Part shown: positions 1 through 20,946 of the stretch, piece by piece
Position numbering within the stretch: the first letter of the stretch is position 1
How the letters are laid out: each line of letters begins with the position of its first letter
From: Dehalococcoidia bacterium
Lineage (GTDB): Bacteria; Chloroflexota; Dehalococcoidia; GIF9; AB-539-J10
Reading direction: 5' to 3'
Assembly: GCA_016933195.1 (NCBI GenBank)
Contig: JAFGBN010000107.1
Coordinates: 1-39,853 of the forward strand
DNA length: 39,853 nucleotides
The notes under the pieces: generated by a model
Told to the model about the DNA's origin: nothing
Databases searched by the model: none
Seen by the model: only the letters and a program-made list of their open reading frames with translations
Program-made: the position numbers and the translations under genes

Positions 1-897
1 AAGCAGCAACTGGCACATCTGGTTCGCCATATGTTCGTGGCCAATGCCCTTGCGCAAAATGCCTACCGTGAGCTTCTATCCTCACCATTCCTGTCGGCTA
101 TTACCGAAGGCTGTATTGAAGTAGGGAGGGACTTGCAGCATGGTGGCGCCAGATACAACTTTGGACCTGCTGTAAATGAGATCGGAATCGCTGATACCGC
201 TGACTCTCTGGCGGTTATCAGAAAGCTCGTCTTTGAGTACAATCGCCTGACCATGGAGGAACTCCTTAATGCTTTGTCCAACAACTTCGAAGGCCGGGAG
301 GAATTGAGGGGCCAGTTCTTGCACCATGTTCCCAAATTCGGTAATGACGAAGATGGAGTCGATGGCATTGCCAATGAGGTGGTCCAGCTCTGTAACGAAG
401 AGGTTATGAAGTATAAGAACATCTTCGGTGGGCAGGCCCAGGCAGGAATAATTGCAGTTACCGCTGGCATACCGTTTGGAAAAGTGGTTGGTGCCCTGCC
501 CAGCGGTAGAAAAGCTGGTGAGCCTCTAGCGGACAATGTCTCTCCCTACCCCGGCAATGATAAGAAGGGACCGACAGCCATCCTGAGATCGGTAGCCAAG
601 CTGGATGTAGCCAGGCTGAGGAATGGGACGCTGCTCAATCTGCGTCTCAGCCCTACCGCGGTTAGCACGCCAGAGGGACTGCACAAAATGGCTAGCTTTA
701 TCCGAGGCCTGTGTGACATCGGCTGCTGGCATATCCAGTTCAACGTGGTGGACACTGCCGTGCTCAGGGATGCACAGCAGCATCCAGAGAAATATAGCGA
801 TCTCTTAGTACGCGTCGCTGGATACAGCGCCTATTTTACCCAGCTTCACAAGGAAGTCCAGGAAGACATCATCAGGCGCACGGAGCACTGCGTTTAG
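1..897 (+). CDS. Glycyl radical enzyme (pyruvate formate-lyase-like), C-terminal part
   Basis: The frame is open to the first base of the window, so the listed ATG at 31 is internal and the gene begins upstream. The visible 298 or so residues are the C-terminal part of a glycyl radical enzyme. The clearest sign is the radical loop RVAGYSAYF about 27 residues from the end, where the glycine hydrogen is abstracted by the activase. Other family segments are the HGGARYNF stretch, the ALPSGRKAGEPLADNVSP stretch and the FNVVDTAVLRDAQ stretch. The active-site cysteine loop lies before the window, so substrate class (C-N, C-O or C-S lyase, dehydratase or formate-lyase type) cannot be decided here. 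The activase starts one base after the stop codon, so the pair is surely co-translated. The family works only without oxygen. Confidence 0.93.
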   Translation, partial: KQQLAHLVRHMFVANALAQNAYRELLSSPFLSAITEGCIEVGRDLQHGGARYNFGPAVNEIGIADTADSLAVIRKLVFEYNRLTMEELLNALSNNFEGREELRGQFLHHVPKFGNDEDGVDGIANEVVQLCNEEVMKYKNIFGGQAQAGIIAVTAGIPFGKVVGALPSGRKAGEPLADNVSPYPGNDKKGPTAILRSVAKLDVARLRNGTLLNLRLSPTAVSTPEGLHKMASFIRGLCDIGCWHIQFNVVDTAVLRDAQQHPEKYSDLLVRVAGYSAYFTQLHKEVQEDIIRRTEHCV

Positions 898-1857
898 ATG
901 AGACAGGGCCTAATTTTCGACGTGCAGAGATTCTCACTACACGACGGGCCAGGCCTGCGAACTCTTATCTTCTTCAAGGGTTGTCCGCTAAGTTGCTGGT
1001 GGTGCTCCAACCCTGAATCCCATCATGGGTGTCAGGAGATAATGTTCGATGCCCGGCGTTGCAAAGGATGTGGCGTCTGTGTTGCAGCCTGTCCCTCGGG
1101 AGCACTCACCAGGGATAGTAAGGGCAACTTTATCTATCGGCCTGAGATATGCCGCCTTTGTGGTGCCTGTGCCGAGGCCTGTCCTGAAGAAGCACGTCGC
1201 CTGGTGGGGAGATGGGTCACCGTGGAGGGGCTTATGCTGGAAGTTGAGAGGGATGTGCCGTTCTTCAGGAGGTCGGGTGGGGGCGTGACCTTGGGAGGTG
1301 GCGAACCGACATCCCAGCCGGAATTTGCCCTGGACCTTCTCAAGGCATGCCAGGAGCGGGGCATCAATACTGCTATGGAAACATCGGGATATGCGCCATG
1401 GAAGGTGATTTCTGAGCTAAGCCGACACCTGGACTACATCCTCTTCGATATTAAGCACATCGATCCGGTACAACATAAACGACTGACCGGGGTAAGCAAC
1501 CTGAGGATACTCGACAATCTAGGGAAGCTATGCCGGGTTCATGCCCGTGTTGTTCCTCGTTACCCGCTGATACCCGGCTGCAATGACGGTGAAGCGGACA
1601 TCTTGGCCATGGCCAGGTACATAAAGGCTCAAGGACATGTTGAAAAGGTGGAGGTTATTCCTTACCATCGTTACGGGGAGCTCAAATATGAGATGCTGAG
1701 CAGGAAATATCGGCTGGCTGAATTAGCTATACCAGATTCTGAGATGGTGGCTCGGGCCTGCGAACTGATACGCTCTCAAGGACTCGCCTGCGAAGCCAGT
1801 GCACTGAGTATGCTCTCTTTGTCAAGAAAAAGGGGAGAGAATATACTTCGCGATTGA
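898..1857 (+). CDS. Glycyl-radical enzyme activating enzyme (radical SAM)
   Basis: This 319-residue protein should install the glycyl radical on the enzyme encoded just upstream. The radical SAM cluster motif is CPLSCWWC near residue 30 (CxxxCxxC). It is followed by a ferredoxin-like insert with two CxxCxxCxxxC motifs (CKGCGVCVAACP and CRLCGACAEACP), which marks the three-cluster type of activase used by non-PFL glycyl radical enzymes rather than the short PflA type. GGGEPTSQPEF is the SAM-binding GGE motif. The ATG follows the upstream TAG with no gap, and I see no separate Shine-Dalgarno, so translation is probably coupled. The function is secure at family level; partner specificity is inferred from adjacency. 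Confidence 0.95.
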   Translation: MRQGLIFDVQRFSLHDGPGLRTLIFFKGCPLSCWWCSNPESHHGCQEIMFDARRCKGCGVCVAACPSGALTRDSKGNFIYRPEICRLCGACAEACPEEARRLVGRWVTVEGLMLEVERDVPFFRRSGGGVTLGGGEPTSQPEFALDLLKACQERGINTAMETSGYAPWKVISELSRHLDYILFDIKHIDPVQHKRLTGVSNLRILDNLGKLCRVHARVVPRYPLIPGCNDGEADILAMARYIKAQGHVEKVEVIPYHRYGELKYEMLSRKYRLAELAIPDSEMVARACELIRSQGLACEASALSMLSLSRKRGENILRD

Positions 1858-4424: not shown

Positions 4425-4458
4425 AGTATCGGGCATCGAAAAAACGCAGTGCAGGGTT

Positions 4459-4477
4459 GGCTTTATAAGCCTGTTTT
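4459..4477 (+). terminator. Possible rho-independent terminator after the flavin reductase
   Basis: GGCTT-TAT-AAGCC forms a 5-bp stem with a three-base loop, followed by TGTTTT. It lies 35 bases after the reductase stop codon. The stem is short and the T run is interrupted, so this is a moderate call. Confidence 0.4.
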
Positions 4478-4782
4478 GTCTGCTACTCCGCGCATCCCTA
4501 TAGTTGTGTCACTTATCGGCCAGGTTCACCGCACTCTCCTTGTTATATTGTTAGAGTGCACCAGGGGATAGTGCGAAACCCTTGAGAGGAGCCGCTTGTG
4601 ATATGTCCCGAAGTCAAATATCCTCAAAAACAGCTTGACTCAAGAAGTTTGATTACCAAGATGACGCGGTGATACAATTGAGGTCAGGTGAGGCAAGAGG
4701 TCGCCGTAGCGGGAATCGATGAAAAAGACCTCTTGCTGGGGCGAATTTCGCCCGGATATAAGGACAAGCTGGCTATGATTTG
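4478..4782. other. Intergenic stretch before the tRNA cluster
   Basis: About 300 bases with no supported gene. It must carry the tRNA promoter, but the only -35-like element I see (TTGACT near 4634) has no convincing -10 at 16-18 bases. A GAGGAG run near 4590 is not followed by a usable ORF. Confidence 0.4.
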
Positions 4783-4858
4783 GGGCGGTTAGCTCAGTGG
4801 TGAGAGCGCTTGCTTCACACGCAAGAGGTCACTGGTTCAAGTCCAGTACTGCCCACCA
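4783..4858 (+). tRNA. tRNA-Val (anticodon CAC)
   Basis: A full cloverleaf. Acceptor GGGCGGT pairs with ACTGCCC, the D arm is GCTC/GAGC, and the anticodon stem CTTGC/GCAAG encloses loop TTCACAC. The T arm is CTGG-TTCAAGT-CCAG, with discriminator A and an encoded CCA. The anticodon CAC reads GUG. It closely resembles the Val(TAC) gene at 5284, so the two are probably duplicates that diverged in the anticodon arm. Confidence 0.96.
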
Positions 4859-5042: not shown

Positions 5043-5128
5043 GCCGAAGTGGCGGAAAGGCAGACGCGCTACGTTCAGGGCGTAGTGCCCTTAAGGGCGT
5101 GAGGGTTCAAATCCCTCCTTCGGCACCA
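5043..5128 (+). tRNA. tRNA-Leu (anticodon CAG)
   Basis: A class II tRNA of 86 bases with a long variable arm. Acceptor GCCGAAG pairs with CTTCGGC, and the anticodon stem CTACG/CGTAG encloses loop TTCAGGG, giving anticodon CAG for CUG codons. The variable arm has the GCCCTTAAGGGC hairpin, the T arm is GAGGG-TTCAAAT-CCCTC, and ACCA is encoded at the 3' end. Confidence 0.96.
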
Positions 5129-5189: not shown

Positions 5190-5266
5190 GCGCCTGTAGC
5201 TCAGCAGGATAGAGCGCAGCCCTGCGGAGGCTGAGGTCGCGGGTTCAAATCCCGCCAGGCGTGCCA
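5190..5266 (+). tRNA. tRNA-Arg (anticodon GCG)
   Basis: A full cloverleaf. The acceptor GCGCCTG pairs with CAGGCGT, with a G-U pair at position 1-72. The D arm is GCTC/GAGC, and the anticodon stem CAGCC/GGCTG encloses loop CTGCGGA. The T arm is GCGGG-TTCAAAT-CCCGC, with discriminator G and an encoded CCA. The loop puts GCG at positions 34-36, reading CGC and CGU. Most bacteria use Arg(ACG), edited to inosine by TadA, for these codons, so GCG is unusual (see findings). The reverse-strand ORF of the track over this region is a spurious antisense of the tRNAs. Confidence 0.94.
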
Positions 5267-5283: not shown

Positions 5284-5359
5284 GGGCGGTTAGCTCAGTG
5301 GTTAGAGCGCCTGTTTTACACACAGGAGGCCAGAGGTTCAAGTCCTCTACTGCCCACCA
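5284..5359 (+). tRNA. tRNA-Val (anticodon TAC)
   Basis: Acceptor GGGCGGT pairs with ACTGCCC. The anticodon stem CCTGT/ACAGG encloses loop TTTACAC, giving anticodon TAC, which reads GUA and, with modification, other valine codons. The T arm is GAGG-TTCAAGT-CCTC and ACCA is encoded. Together with Val(CAC) at 4783 it makes an isoacceptor pair. Confidence 0.96.
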
Positions 5360-15824: not shown

Positions 15825-17804
15825 TCATCTGTGCCATAAGCCTTGGCTATACCTTAGTATCACCACAAGAGGCTCAACAAAACCCTCTCTGGCTACTGTT
15901 CTTAAAACCTCGTGCCGGGAGATAAAGGCAGCTAGTGGCGGGCTAACCCGGTAATAGAAAGCGACAAGCTCAGCACCTACCCTGTTGGGCAGCATAACCT
16001 CATCTCTGAACTCTCTTAGAACCTCTATCTCCTCTGCTGCGGATGTGCCGTAAGCCGCGGTAGCAATAAAACAAGCTCCTACGGTAATATCTGCCGTATC
16101 TGGGTCTGAGTCTAGCTCTCCATCATTCACCACCAGTGTGATTGTGGTGGTTCCTACAGGAAGTTCCACCGTTGGGCTTACGCCGTAGGCAATATTGCCA
16201 TCCCAAGTCCAGGTATAAGTTAAGGGGTCGCCATCTTGGTCATAGGAACCAGAACCATCAAGAGTGACCTCTGCCGTCTCGGTGCCTGCTGGACCTCCAT
16301 AGACTAGTCGGTCTGGGCCAGCATCAGCGACTGGTGGGCGATTATGGGTAACAGCGATGGTATCATCGCCACAAACAGGAAACTCGTTCAAGTCATAATC
16401 GCGCACCACCCCGGTAAAGGTATAATAGCCTTCCACCATTGATGCTGTAACGGTGTAGGTGAAGGTTGCCGCATCGCCAGAGAATGTGAACTTAACTATA
16501 TTAGCTAGTACCTCCACCCCGATATTTGGATCTGTGCAACTGCCCACCACATAGGCGAACTCAAAAGGAAGGGTCTCTGTCACTTGACCGGTGGAGCCAC
16601 AGCCCCATGCTTCAATGCCGACATTGAAGTTAGCGCCTGGTTTTACTATGGTCGAGAGGTTCCTGGTAGCCATTGTCTTGGTAAATTGCTTCTTCCCCTT
16701 CTCCAGGCAGATGATGTTCTCGCCATTGAAGGGGTCGTCTTGGGGGGTTGTGCTGCCGGGATAAGAGGTGAGGACGACGATCATAATCTTTTCCTCGACA
16801 CAGAGGTCAAGCTCGGTGGGGTCAACTATCAATACGGCGCGAGCTCTGCCCCTGACATCACCAGAGAGGCTATCCTCAGTTGTATTCCAGGCATACCATG
16901 GGAACACAATCGCGCCCGTGTCCGCAGGTGGTGGCGGAATAATCTCGTTCCAACTGAAGATGGTGGGGTCTGCAAACCTGTCGTCCGCAGTGCCGGAGAC
17001 AAGATCTGGACCCAGGCCATAGTGGTTGATGTAGTCGAAGGGCTCACCAAGGTCAAGGTCCTCTACTATGTACCTACCGTGAGCTGCCCAATGGTCGTCA
17101 TCCAGAGCGCCTTGATGTGCCGCCAGATAGTCCATCAAGTCGTCGATGAACTCTTGGTTCTCGTCGGTGTCCTGGAACAGCCACCAGTGGACTATGGCAT
17201 GACCGGCAGGCACAGTCCCAGGCACCTCAGGGAACTCAGCGTAAACCATATCAGTTATGGTCTCTTCTATCTCCTCTGTGGCAACAGGGCTGACGGTCAC
17301 AGTCTCGGTATGCTGCACTCCGTCTGTATCAGGGTCAACATCGAGCTCGGTGTGGTCAAGCTCACCCCAGTTCTTCTGCGTGTGCAGGGTGACGCACTCC
17401 GTCTCCGAAGCTAGAGTACCCGGCACAGTGACACAGACCTTGGCATATATATGGATGCCACCCCTGAGGTAGGATTTGATTATGATGCAAGTATCGTCGC
17501 TGTGATTTGCAGGGTCAAACACTCCTCCTGCCCATGGCTCCTCGCAGTCCTGAATGTCATCGGGGTCCAGGTTTGCGACTGGCTCGAGCCACCACTCGAT
17601 GCTCGCGCCATAAGGCACATTCTCCAAACATATCTGCTGGCACGCTCCCTTGACATCCCAAGCCATAGACGTAGGGACAATCTCCACGCTATCGAGGTCA
17701 TCTGCAACAACTTTGGCTTGGCCTGGCACCATGCTCAAGCCGAGACATAGTGCCAAGGCAACCGCTACATAAATTGACTTGTTACGCCATTTTGTTTTAC
17801 TCAT
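15825..17804 (-). CDS. Secreted PKD-domain protein with CFI-box C-terminus
   Basis: A 659-residue exported protein. The signal peptide is clear: KWRNKSIYVAVALALCLGLS then PGQAK. A long region of unknown, acidic, aromatic-rich sequence follows (about 40-495). A PKD domain sits at about 497-577 (PPVADAGPDRLVYGG ... DPLTYTWTWDG). The last 80 residues start with CFIATAAYGTSAAEEIEVLREFRDEV and match the 'CFI-box' C-terminal module found at the end of many secreted bacterial proteins, with later hydrophobic residues (LVAFYYRVSPPLAAFI). That module's role is not established. AGGGGGG upstream supports the start. Large plus-strand ORFs across it are shadows. No enzymatic motif is seen; adhesion or surface display is plausible. 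Confidence 0.85.
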   Translation of the reverse strand: MSKTKWRNKSIYVAVALALCLGLSMVPGQAKVVADDLDSVEIVPTSMAWDVKGACQQICLENVPYGASIEWWLEPVANLDPDDIQDCEEPWAGGVFDPANHSDDTCIIIKSYLRGGIHIYAKVCVTVPGTLASETECVTLHTQKNWGELDHTELDVDPDTDGVQHTETVTVSPVATEEIEETITDMVYAEFPEVPGTVPAGHAIVHWWLFQDTDENQEFIDDLMDYLAAHQGALDDDHWAAHGRYIVEDLDLGEPFDYINHYGLGPDLVSGTADDRFADPTIFSWNEIIPPPPADTGAIVFPWYAWNTTEDSLSGDVRGRARAVLIVDPTELDLCVEEKIMIVVLTSYPGSTTPQDDPFNGENIICLEKGKKQFTKTMATRNLSTIVKPGANFNVGIEAWGCGSTGQVTETLPFEFAYVVGSCTDPNIGVEVLANIVKFTFSGDAATFTYTVTASMVEGYYTFTGVVRDYDLNEFPVCGDDTIAVTHNRPPVADAGPDRLVYGGPAGTETAEVTLDGSGSYDQDGDPLTYTWTWDGNIAYGVSPTVELPVGTTTITLVVNDGELDSDPDTADITVGACFIATAAYGTSAAEEIEVLREFRDEVMLPNRVGAELVAFYYRVSPPLAAFISRHEVLRTVAREGFVEPLVVILRYSQGLWHR

Positions 17805-19005: not shown

Positions 19006-20946
19006 TTACTGTAAGGTGACCAGGATGTCTATGACACCAGTGCCGGACTCCAGCTCGCCCAGTGCCTTGCCCAGCATGGTGCCTAGCTTCATCTCGGTGG
19101 CCTTCATGGCATGGCCCGGTGTGCTGGAGGTGGTCAGCAGGTCTCCTCTGTGGACAGGCCCGTTCTCTGCAGAGACCTTGCAGGGCACAATGCCCAGGAC
19201 AGCCACAGGGAGCTCGTCACCGTTCTGGTCTTCCATTACATGGGGTGAACCGAGAAAGCCCGGCTCCTCCGAATAAACCCCAATGACAGCACTGGAATAC
19301 GGCCGTGAGGATAGTTGGACTGCTCTGTCCTGCTCATCGCTGATAACCAGCACGTCGCCCGGCTGGTAATCTTCAGTTATTCCCTCGGTGCTCATCAACT
19401 CGGCGAAGTCGGCAGCACCCTGCCAGCCTCCATCGGCATAGGCTGCGCCAGTATTGGTGACCTTGAAATCCACATCGGCATCGCTGCCTGCTCTTATGTA
19501 GTCTCGCCCAACCCCGTTGAAGATGCGCAGGCCATCCTGACCGGCATTCTGGACGCGGAGGGCGTCACCGCCTGCATCGGCCACGTAGACGCCGCTCCAG
19601 TTGGCATCCTCGATGCGGACGCCGTCATGGCCGGCTGAGCTGACATGGACGCCGCTTTGGCTGGCAGAGTCAACTTGGAAGCCATAACCGCCGGCATCTT
19701 CGACGCGGACGCCGTCATGGCCGGCTGAGTAGACGCGGACGCCGCAGGAGCTGGCGTTCGCGACGCGGATGCCGTCTAAGCCGGTACTTCCGACATAGAC
19801 GCCGGTATAGTCGGCATGCGCGATGTAGAAACCGTTATGGCCGGCATTCTGGACGTTGATAGCGTCAGTGCGTGCATCGAAGATGTTGAGGCCGCTATGT
19901 TGGGCATGCTCAACGTAGAAGCCATTAGAGCCGGCACTATAGACGCTGACGCCGTCACCGCCGGCTGAGTAGACACGGACGCCGCTGGAGGTGGCACTCG
20001 CGACGTGGAGGCCGTAGCGGTCGGCAGAGTCGACATAGACGCCGTCTCCGCCGGAGCTGTTGAATTCGCCGCCAGGGCCACTTCCACTGTTCGTTACGCT
20101 GAGTACAGCTGAACTGCTCGACCCGGTCATGCCATCGCCCGACTGGTTAACATACTTGTCGCTCAGAGTACTAGTGCCCTCGTAAAGGTTCGAGGCCACA
20201 CCGGAGCGGCCCCAGTCCTGACCCGTGGATAGAAACGCGCTGGAATTAAGCCCATCCAGGGTATCGGCATCCAGGCCTGACCCGGCGCCGTCATCATCAA
20301 GTATCTCGCCTATGGCTGCGCCATCATCCAGGTGATCGGAGGAAACAGCGTGGTTAGCAATCATAGCGGATGTGATGGAGTCCATCTGACCTTCGTTGAC
20401 ATACCTGTTAGTGAGCTTGGTGGTGCCTTCGTAAAGGTTCGAGGCTACACCGGAGCGACCCCAGTCCTGACCCGTGGACAAGAAAGCGCTGGAATCAAGA
20501 CCATCCAGAGTATCGGCATCGTTGGCCTTCTCCGCCTTTATGGCGTATGGTATGGAGATGAGGCGCTGCCGTGGTTGCAATACCTCGCCATTGACTACTA
20601 TCTCCAGGTAACGGTCACTTCCATCGAACAGGTCAGCAGGGAAAGAGACATATTGCCCCAGCTGTACGCTGAATAGGCTGTTGACCACCGCCACCGCCTG
20701 CGGCTCACTCCACAGTGCAGCGCCGCCAAGTTCCACATCATATACGCGGAACTCCATGTTGTAAGTGCCGTCCAGAGGATTGCCTTGGCCATCCGTCAGT
20801 TGCCCCTGGTAGTTTATCCTGGCTATTACAGGGTCACCGGCAGCCGCTGGCGGGGTTGCTATCACCCCGCTGGTAAGAAGTGCTGCCACAAGCACAACCG
20901 CTGCCACCACCCCGATTAGCCTTTTGTTCTTCATGATCTTTTTCAC
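19006..20946 (-). CDS. Large secreted protein with 10-residue tandem repeats
   Basis: A 646-residue exported protein. The GTG at 20946 has AAGGAGG six bases upstream and is the start. The signal peptide is about residues 1-31 (RLIGVVAAVVLVAALLTSG). Residues 40-135 form a beta-rich domain (INYQGQLTDGQGNPLDGTYN ... SIPYAIKAEKAND) that commonly opens surface or fibre proteins. A 42-residue module DADTLDG ... YEGT ... RYVN appears twice (143-184 and 226-267). Residues 298-477 are eighteen 10-residue repeats of the form AGxDGVxVxx. The C-terminal region (about 500-646; DFAELMSTEGITEDYQPGDVLVIS ... GDLLTTSSTPGHAMK) resembles chaperone-like or attachment ends of fibre proteins. A fibrous surface or appendage protein is the best guess. 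I know no exact homologue. Confidence 0.88.
   Translation of the reverse strand: MKKIMKNKRLIGVVAAVVLVAALLTSGVIATPPAAAGDPVIARINYQGQLTDGQGNPLDGTYNMEFRVYDVELGGAALWSEPQAVAVVNSLFSVQLGQYVSFPADLFDGSDRYLEIVVNGEVLQPRQRLISIPYAIKAEKANDADTLDGLDSSAFLSTGQDWGRSGVASNLYEGTTKLTNRYVNEGQMDSITSAMIANHAVSSDHLDDGAAIGEILDDDGAGSGLDADTLDGLNSSAFLSTGQDWGRSGVASNLYEGTSTLSDKYVNQSGDGMTGSSSSAVLSVTNSGSGPGGEFNSSGGDGVYVDSADRYGLHVASATSSGVRVYSAGGDGVSVYSAGSNGFYVEHAQHSGLNIFDARTDAINVQNAGHNGFYIAHADYTGVYVGSTGLDGIRVANASSCGVRVYSAGHDGVRVEDAGGYGFQVDSASQSGVHVSSAGHDGVRIEDANWSGVYVADAGGDALRVQNAGQDGLRIFNGVGRDYIRAGSDADVDFKVTNTGAAYADGGWQGAADFAELMSTEGITEDYQPGDVLVISDEQDRAVQLSSRPYSSAVIGVYSEEPGFLGSPHVMEDQNGDELPVAVLGIVPCKVSAENGPVHRGDLLTTSSTPGHAMKATEMKLGTMLGKALGELESGTGVIDILVTLQ
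19516..20055 (-). repeat. Eighteen in-frame 30-bp repeats (10-residue units)
   Basis: The coding repeat encodes 18 uninterrupted units of exactly ten residues, for example AGHDGVRVED and ASQSGVHVSS. Position 5-6 is usually G-V/L/F/I, and position 8 is usually V or I. Position 4 mostly cycles D, Y/N, S/T, giving a 30-residue (90-bp) super-period. Alternating hydrophobic positions suggest a beta-solenoid. Confidence 0.9.
20146..20520 (-). repeat. Two copies of a 126-bp module within the surface gene
   Basis: Positions 20395..20520 and 20146..20271 encode 42-residue modules differing at only a handful of residues; both contain AFLSTGQDWGRSGVASNLYE. They are separated by 41 codons that end in another DDG-rich stretch. 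The pattern indicates an internal duplication. Confidence 0.88.

Follow-up and report, generated by a model that had tools for sequence, protein, structure and literature searches.

The window, i.e. the whole stretch of 39,853 nucleotides that was analysed, represents contig C28 of a 1.93-Mb metagenome-assembled genome (MAG; 125 contigs, 92.3% complete, 5.1% contamination). Near its start, ARAGORN called a forward-strand tRNA cluster composed of tRNA-Val(CAC) (4783..4858), tRNA-Leu(CAG) (5043..5128), tRNA-Arg(GCG) (5190..5266) and tRNA-Val(TAC) (5284..5359). This cluster is conserved in relatives, and Dehalococcoides (L220–L222) retains the order Leu(CAG)-Arg(GCG)-Val(TAC). Within the same cluster, many genomes of the order carry a tRNA-Arg(GCG) up to 99% identical to that of the window outside the anticodon.

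The tRNA-Arg(GCG) gene, with its CCA encoded, matched the Rfam tRNA model at 69.1 bits (E = 3.5e-13) with model positions 1–71 complete. Its acceptor stem (GCGCCTG/CAGGCGT) contains a G1-U72 pair, the remaining six pairs being Watson–Crick; the D arm is full, and the T arm is regular (GCGGG TTCAAAT CCCGC). The anticodon stem CAGCC/GGCTG closes the loop CTGCGGA, in which U33 and G37 flank the GCG anticodon (G34 C35 G36, 5224..5226). ARAGORN, the Rfam model and direct reading of the sequence thus all bear out the first-pass annotation of a tRNA-Arg with a GCG anticodon, a G1-U72 pair and an otherwise perfect cloverleaf. Bacterial ArgRS recognises arginine tRNAs through A20, C35, G36 and A/G73. 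All of these elements are present here both in the sequence and in the alignment (A20 in the D-loop, G73 as the discriminator), and the tRNA would be expected to be aminoacylated by ArgRS. The G1-U72 pair is usual in families f1, f2 and f4, with G1-C72 in f3, f5 and f17 and a Watson–Crick A1-U72 in one genome (G008), where position 1 is A; it also occurs in some Chloroflexota Arg(ACG) tRNAs (L176–L178). The pair is thus frequent in the order and represents an unremarkable acceptor-end transition without special meaning.

Several protein-coding genes elsewhere in the window were also observed. By eye, positions 31–1857 (+) encode the C-terminal portion of a protein resembling glycyl radical enzymes and, after it, its likely radical-SAM activase. 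A PKD-like secreted protein (15825–17804, −) ends in GACFIATAAYG and then a hydrophobic tail, an ending which we take to resemble the CFI-box C-terminal motif. The product of 19006–20946 (−), with many short Ala/Gly/Val-rich repeats (e.g. SGVRVYSAGHDGVRVEDAG), is probably a repetitive beta-helix surface protein.

Arginine decoding in the source genome

Reading of all tRNA-model matches in the genome gave five arginine tRNAs, with anticodons GCG, CCG (L018), TCG (L021), TCT and CCT, and neither tRNA-Arg(ACG) nor any other A34 tRNA was called among these matches. No protein scored above the cut-off of the TadA equivalog model; the best matches, a 369-aa protein identified as RibD (360.6 bits to TIGR00326) and a ComEB-type deaminase, both fell far below it. 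The first-pass annotation had raised the possibility of a genome without Arg(ACG) in which TadA could be dispensable, and the tRNA listing and tadA search agree with it in finding neither. Both components of the usual bacterial TadA/I34 system for CGN codons are therefore missing from the set recovered, which, with Arg(UCG) and Arg(CCG) present, has the composition of TadA-independent G34+U34+C34 arginine decoding.

tRNA-Arg(GCG) is the sole arginine isoacceptor found for CGU and CGC in this genome, and since no Arg(ACG), A34 tRNA or TadA was found, these codons must be read via G34 rather than inosine. G34 would pair with C and, by inferred wobble, with U, so that both CGC and CGU could be read; tRNA-Arg(UCG) would serve CGA (and CGG), tRNA-Arg(CCG) would read CGG, and the UCU and CCU tRNAs would read AGA/AGG. 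Codon use was assessed from window genes and rpoB only. Across 23 window genes, the arginine codons comprise CGU 58, CGC 87, CGA 60, CGG 57, AGA 105 and AGG 113; on the tRNA set found, 145 of these 480 codons fall to tRNA-Arg(GCG), so that we would expect the gene to be essential. No significant effect of TadA on codon use was detected after allowing for GC3 (t = −1.3). The earlier suggestion that arginine decoding may be rewired holds only in the sense that CGN codons are served by the ordinary G34+U34+C34 strategy, by which other four-codon boxes are read in bacteria. As the MAG is 92% complete, absence from this genome alone would be weak evidence.

TadA and arginine anticodons across Chloroflexota

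An exact match to Arg(GCG) was present in 29 of the 61 genomes of the order that were searched, so that the window tRNA is no chance occurrence. No Arg(ACG) tRNA was found in these 61 genomes, and none had a TadA above cut-off, the TadA-model matches there being RibD-length frames or shorter deaminases. Across the class Dehalococcoidia, 34 of 41 genomes carried Arg(GCG), seven gave no Arg(GCG) match by either pattern, and none carried Arg(ACG); TadA was likewise absent from all 41, with the best matches lying in RibD-sized frames. A D-arm-independent pattern applied to the class and to 28 other genomes returned only G34 and no A34 arginine tRNA. The genomes without tadA and Arg(ACG) include the single-contig, Dehalococcoides-type genomes G065, G076 and G102. 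Elp3 of the class relative G065 (a single 1.5-Mb contig) scored 985 bits against PDB 5l7j, to which it is nearly identical (roughly 94% by eye), and that of the window genome 628 bits. We take PDB 5l7j to be Elp3 of Dehalococcoides mccartyi (Glatt et al. 2016, cited in PMC5204126), which would make the class Dehalococcoidia and the phylum Chloroflexota; on these protein scores the window genome would belong to another order of that class than G065.

For the phylum, 301 Chloroflexota genomes at least 85% complete were surveyed, with canonical TadA defined as a match of 124 bits or more. Strict patterns detected Arg(GCG) in 181 and Arg(ACG) in 18 of them, and the D-arm-independent pattern, with which 80 genomes were searched, added Arg(GCG) in 41 and Arg(ACG) in five. 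Canonical TadA was found in 38 genomes. It accompanied Arg(ACG) in 18 of 21 genomes versus none of 220 with GCG only (p = 2e-24, Fisher test, the genomes not being independent); this count omits G173 and G264, whose Arg(ACG) matches were rejected as ARAGORN found no Arg(ACG) there. The three Arg(ACG) genomes with no TadA match (G133, G219 and G312) are all MAGs, and siblings of G219 and G312 have TadA; a stray contig or gaps in the assemblies may account for these cases. In G240, genes for Arg(ACG) and Arg(GCG) stand in tandem (L130, G240:C134); this genome also has a canonical, intact TadA and is a plausible intermediate of an anticodon switch.

We therefore consider it highly probable (roughly 0.93) that tRNA-Arg(GCG) is a functional, sole reader of CGU and CGC within an inosine-free set, and that TadA and Arg(ACG) are absent from the sampled Dehalococcoidia and from most Chloroflexota. 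The first-pass view of this tRNA as exceptional and archaeal in character is not upheld: with Arg(GCG) in 34 of 41 class genomes, it is common in related genomes, being the rule in Dehalococcoidia and in most sampled Chloroflexota, and it has been published for other bacteria.

Indeed, the G34 strategy for arginine is already known, and in Dehalococcoidia it is a lineage-wide trait that the window genome shares. Mollicutes without TadA, namely M. pulmonis and most members of the Pneumoniae group, have Arg(GCG) and Arg(UCG) in place of Arg(ACG) (Yokobori et al. 2013, PMC3711424), as here; however, Mollicutes lack the Arg(CCG) that the present genome keeps, and theirs is a case of reductive parasitism, whereas genome sizes among GCG-decoding Chloroflexota extend beyond 10 Mb. 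The Candidate Phyla Radiation (CPR) shows the same three CGN-box anticodons (GCG, UCG and CCG) and no Arg(ACG) (PMC8629427), but the host here belongs to Chloroflexota and no codon reassignment was seen. In Thermotogae and Spirochaetes, Arg(GCG) likewise stands in place of Arg(ACG), there across the phylum (PMC8007984), while Chloroflexota are mixed, some families keeping ACG with TadA. Deep-branching bacteria without inosine were described by Rafels-Ybern et al. 2019, a work considered here as it is cited in PMC8629427, and which may already list Chloroflexota. The literature searched, with incomplete coverage, yielded no description of Arg(GCG)/no-TadA decoding in Chloroflexota or Dehalococcoides. 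A whole class and most sampled Chloroflexota thus lack inosine-34, which is often regarded as universal among bacteria, so that neither Arg(ACG) nor TadA should be taken for granted there in annotation or in models of decoding.

A TadA orthologue lacking the catalytic glutamate

Moderate TadA matches (mostly 94–125 bits) came from families f28 and f40 (loci L229–L238 and L249–L267), in genomes where Arg(GCG) is present and Arg(ACG) absent by two patterns. The catalytic Glu of the HAE motif is replaced in all 28 of these proteins (Val in 25, Ile in two, Thr in one), and the same 28 sequences retain their zinc ligands (H, PCxxC). An active TadA coexisting with Arg(GCG) in these families was consequently rejected, the active site being without its catalytic Glu. 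An HAE-containing protein (G111b) and HAY matches, which represent other proteins, the latter DnaX-like as judged by motif, were left out of the set. Among Chloroflexota TadAs, the f28/f40 orthologues fall into a single clade (100% support), and in the ten loci checked the gene adjoins tRNA-Ser(CGA)-Ser(GGA) (in L230, for example, it lies upstream of tRNA-Ser(CGA) at 4434–4519). Their median pairwise dN/dS of 0.22 (68 non-independent comparisons) indicates that the protein is maintained under purifying selection and is not decaying.

Eukaryotic ADAT3 is inactivated by the same Glu-to-Val change (PMC8216470), and the f28/f40 proteins resemble ADAT3/Tad3 as TadA-family members in which the catalytic Glu has become Val with the zinc ligands kept. 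Unlike ADAT3, they occur in genomes with no visible canonical active TadA partner and with arginine tRNAs without A34; their closest PDB matches are to bacterial TadA (102.8 bits), ADAT3 reaching only 41 bits. After a switch to G34, this TadA may have lost both its substrate and its catalysis while keeping another role, perhaps RNA binding. It is a more novel lead than Arg(GCG) decoding. Since Chloroflexota include genomes in either decoding state, intermediates between the two and an inactive but conserved TadA, they constitute a good natural system for studying the loss of a nearly universal tRNA modification and possible other roles of TadA.

Direction of change and alternative explanations

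In an unrooted RpoB tree of 76 genomes, Dehalococcoidia grouped as a single clade (99% local support), in which every genome lacks TadA and none has Arg(ACG). Seven changes in active TadA and six in anticodon were placed on this tree, and the two changed together in five of five well-supported independent contrasts (six of six when all branches are considered), a number of contrasts with which a sign test cannot reach 0.05. Loss and repeated gain of TadA both require about seven changes on the unrooted tree. As to the gene neighbourhood, tadA adjoins tRNA-Ser(CGA) in seven of the eight distant TadA-bearing families checked, which favours vertical inheritance with repeated TadA loss. We infer that an ancestral TadA/ACG pair was lost, rather than that the lineage was without inosine decoding from the outset.

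The opposite history, in which G34 is primitive, inosine decoding was never present and some Chloroflexota acquired TadA later, concerns only this evolutionary part of our explanation. GCG is the commonest state in Chloroflexota, Arg(ACG) is likewise missing from CPR among other deep lineages (PMC8629427), and several gains of TadA are allowed by the unrooted tree. Nevertheless, the neighbour tRNA-Ser(CGA) shared by TadA in distant families, and the dead TadA kept at the tRNA-Ser site in f28/f40, which shows at least one later loss of activity, make such a history rather unlikely. We lean, somewhat cautiously, towards the view that Chloroflexota switched repeatedly between I34 and G34 and left intermediates behind, namely the G240 tandem and the non-catalytic TadA of f28/f40 as a bacterial parallel to ADAT3. 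Derivation of Arg(GCG) from Arg(ACG) by an A34G change is unsupported, the window tRNA showing, outside the anticodon, ~75% identity to each of Arg(TCG), Arg(CCG) and Arg(ACG).

That Arg(GCG) is a redundant extra, with a normal Arg(ACG)/TadA pair hidden in the unassembled 8% of this fragmented, 125-contig MAG, has a precedent of sorts in the tandem genes of G240, a member of another family. This is very improbable, however, given that both are likewise missing from independent genomes in the order and the class, of which many exceed 95% completeness and some consist of a single contig. A foreign or contaminating tRNA (archaeal, phage or a binning error) might be suspected from the archaeal habit of using GCG and the 5% contamination estimate, but the tRNA recurs, within a conserved cluster, across many members of the order, which rules this origin out; the flanking genes look bacterial, and we assign this origin practically no weight beside the functional, inosine-free reading.

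Two further regions of the source genome were inspected. At its own tRNA-Ser(CGA), a tadA remnant was sought and rejected: a tyrosine integrase-like frame (L275:5054–6382, G000:C118) ends just upstream of the tRNA, in the position that tadA takes in other families, in what looks like an integrated element using tRNA-Ser(CGA). A degenerate second tRNA-Ala(TGC) (L039:180–290, G000:C37:21595–21666; 42.7 bits, uncalled by ARAGORN) is damaged in both its acceptor stem and its T loop and is likely a tRNA pseudogene.
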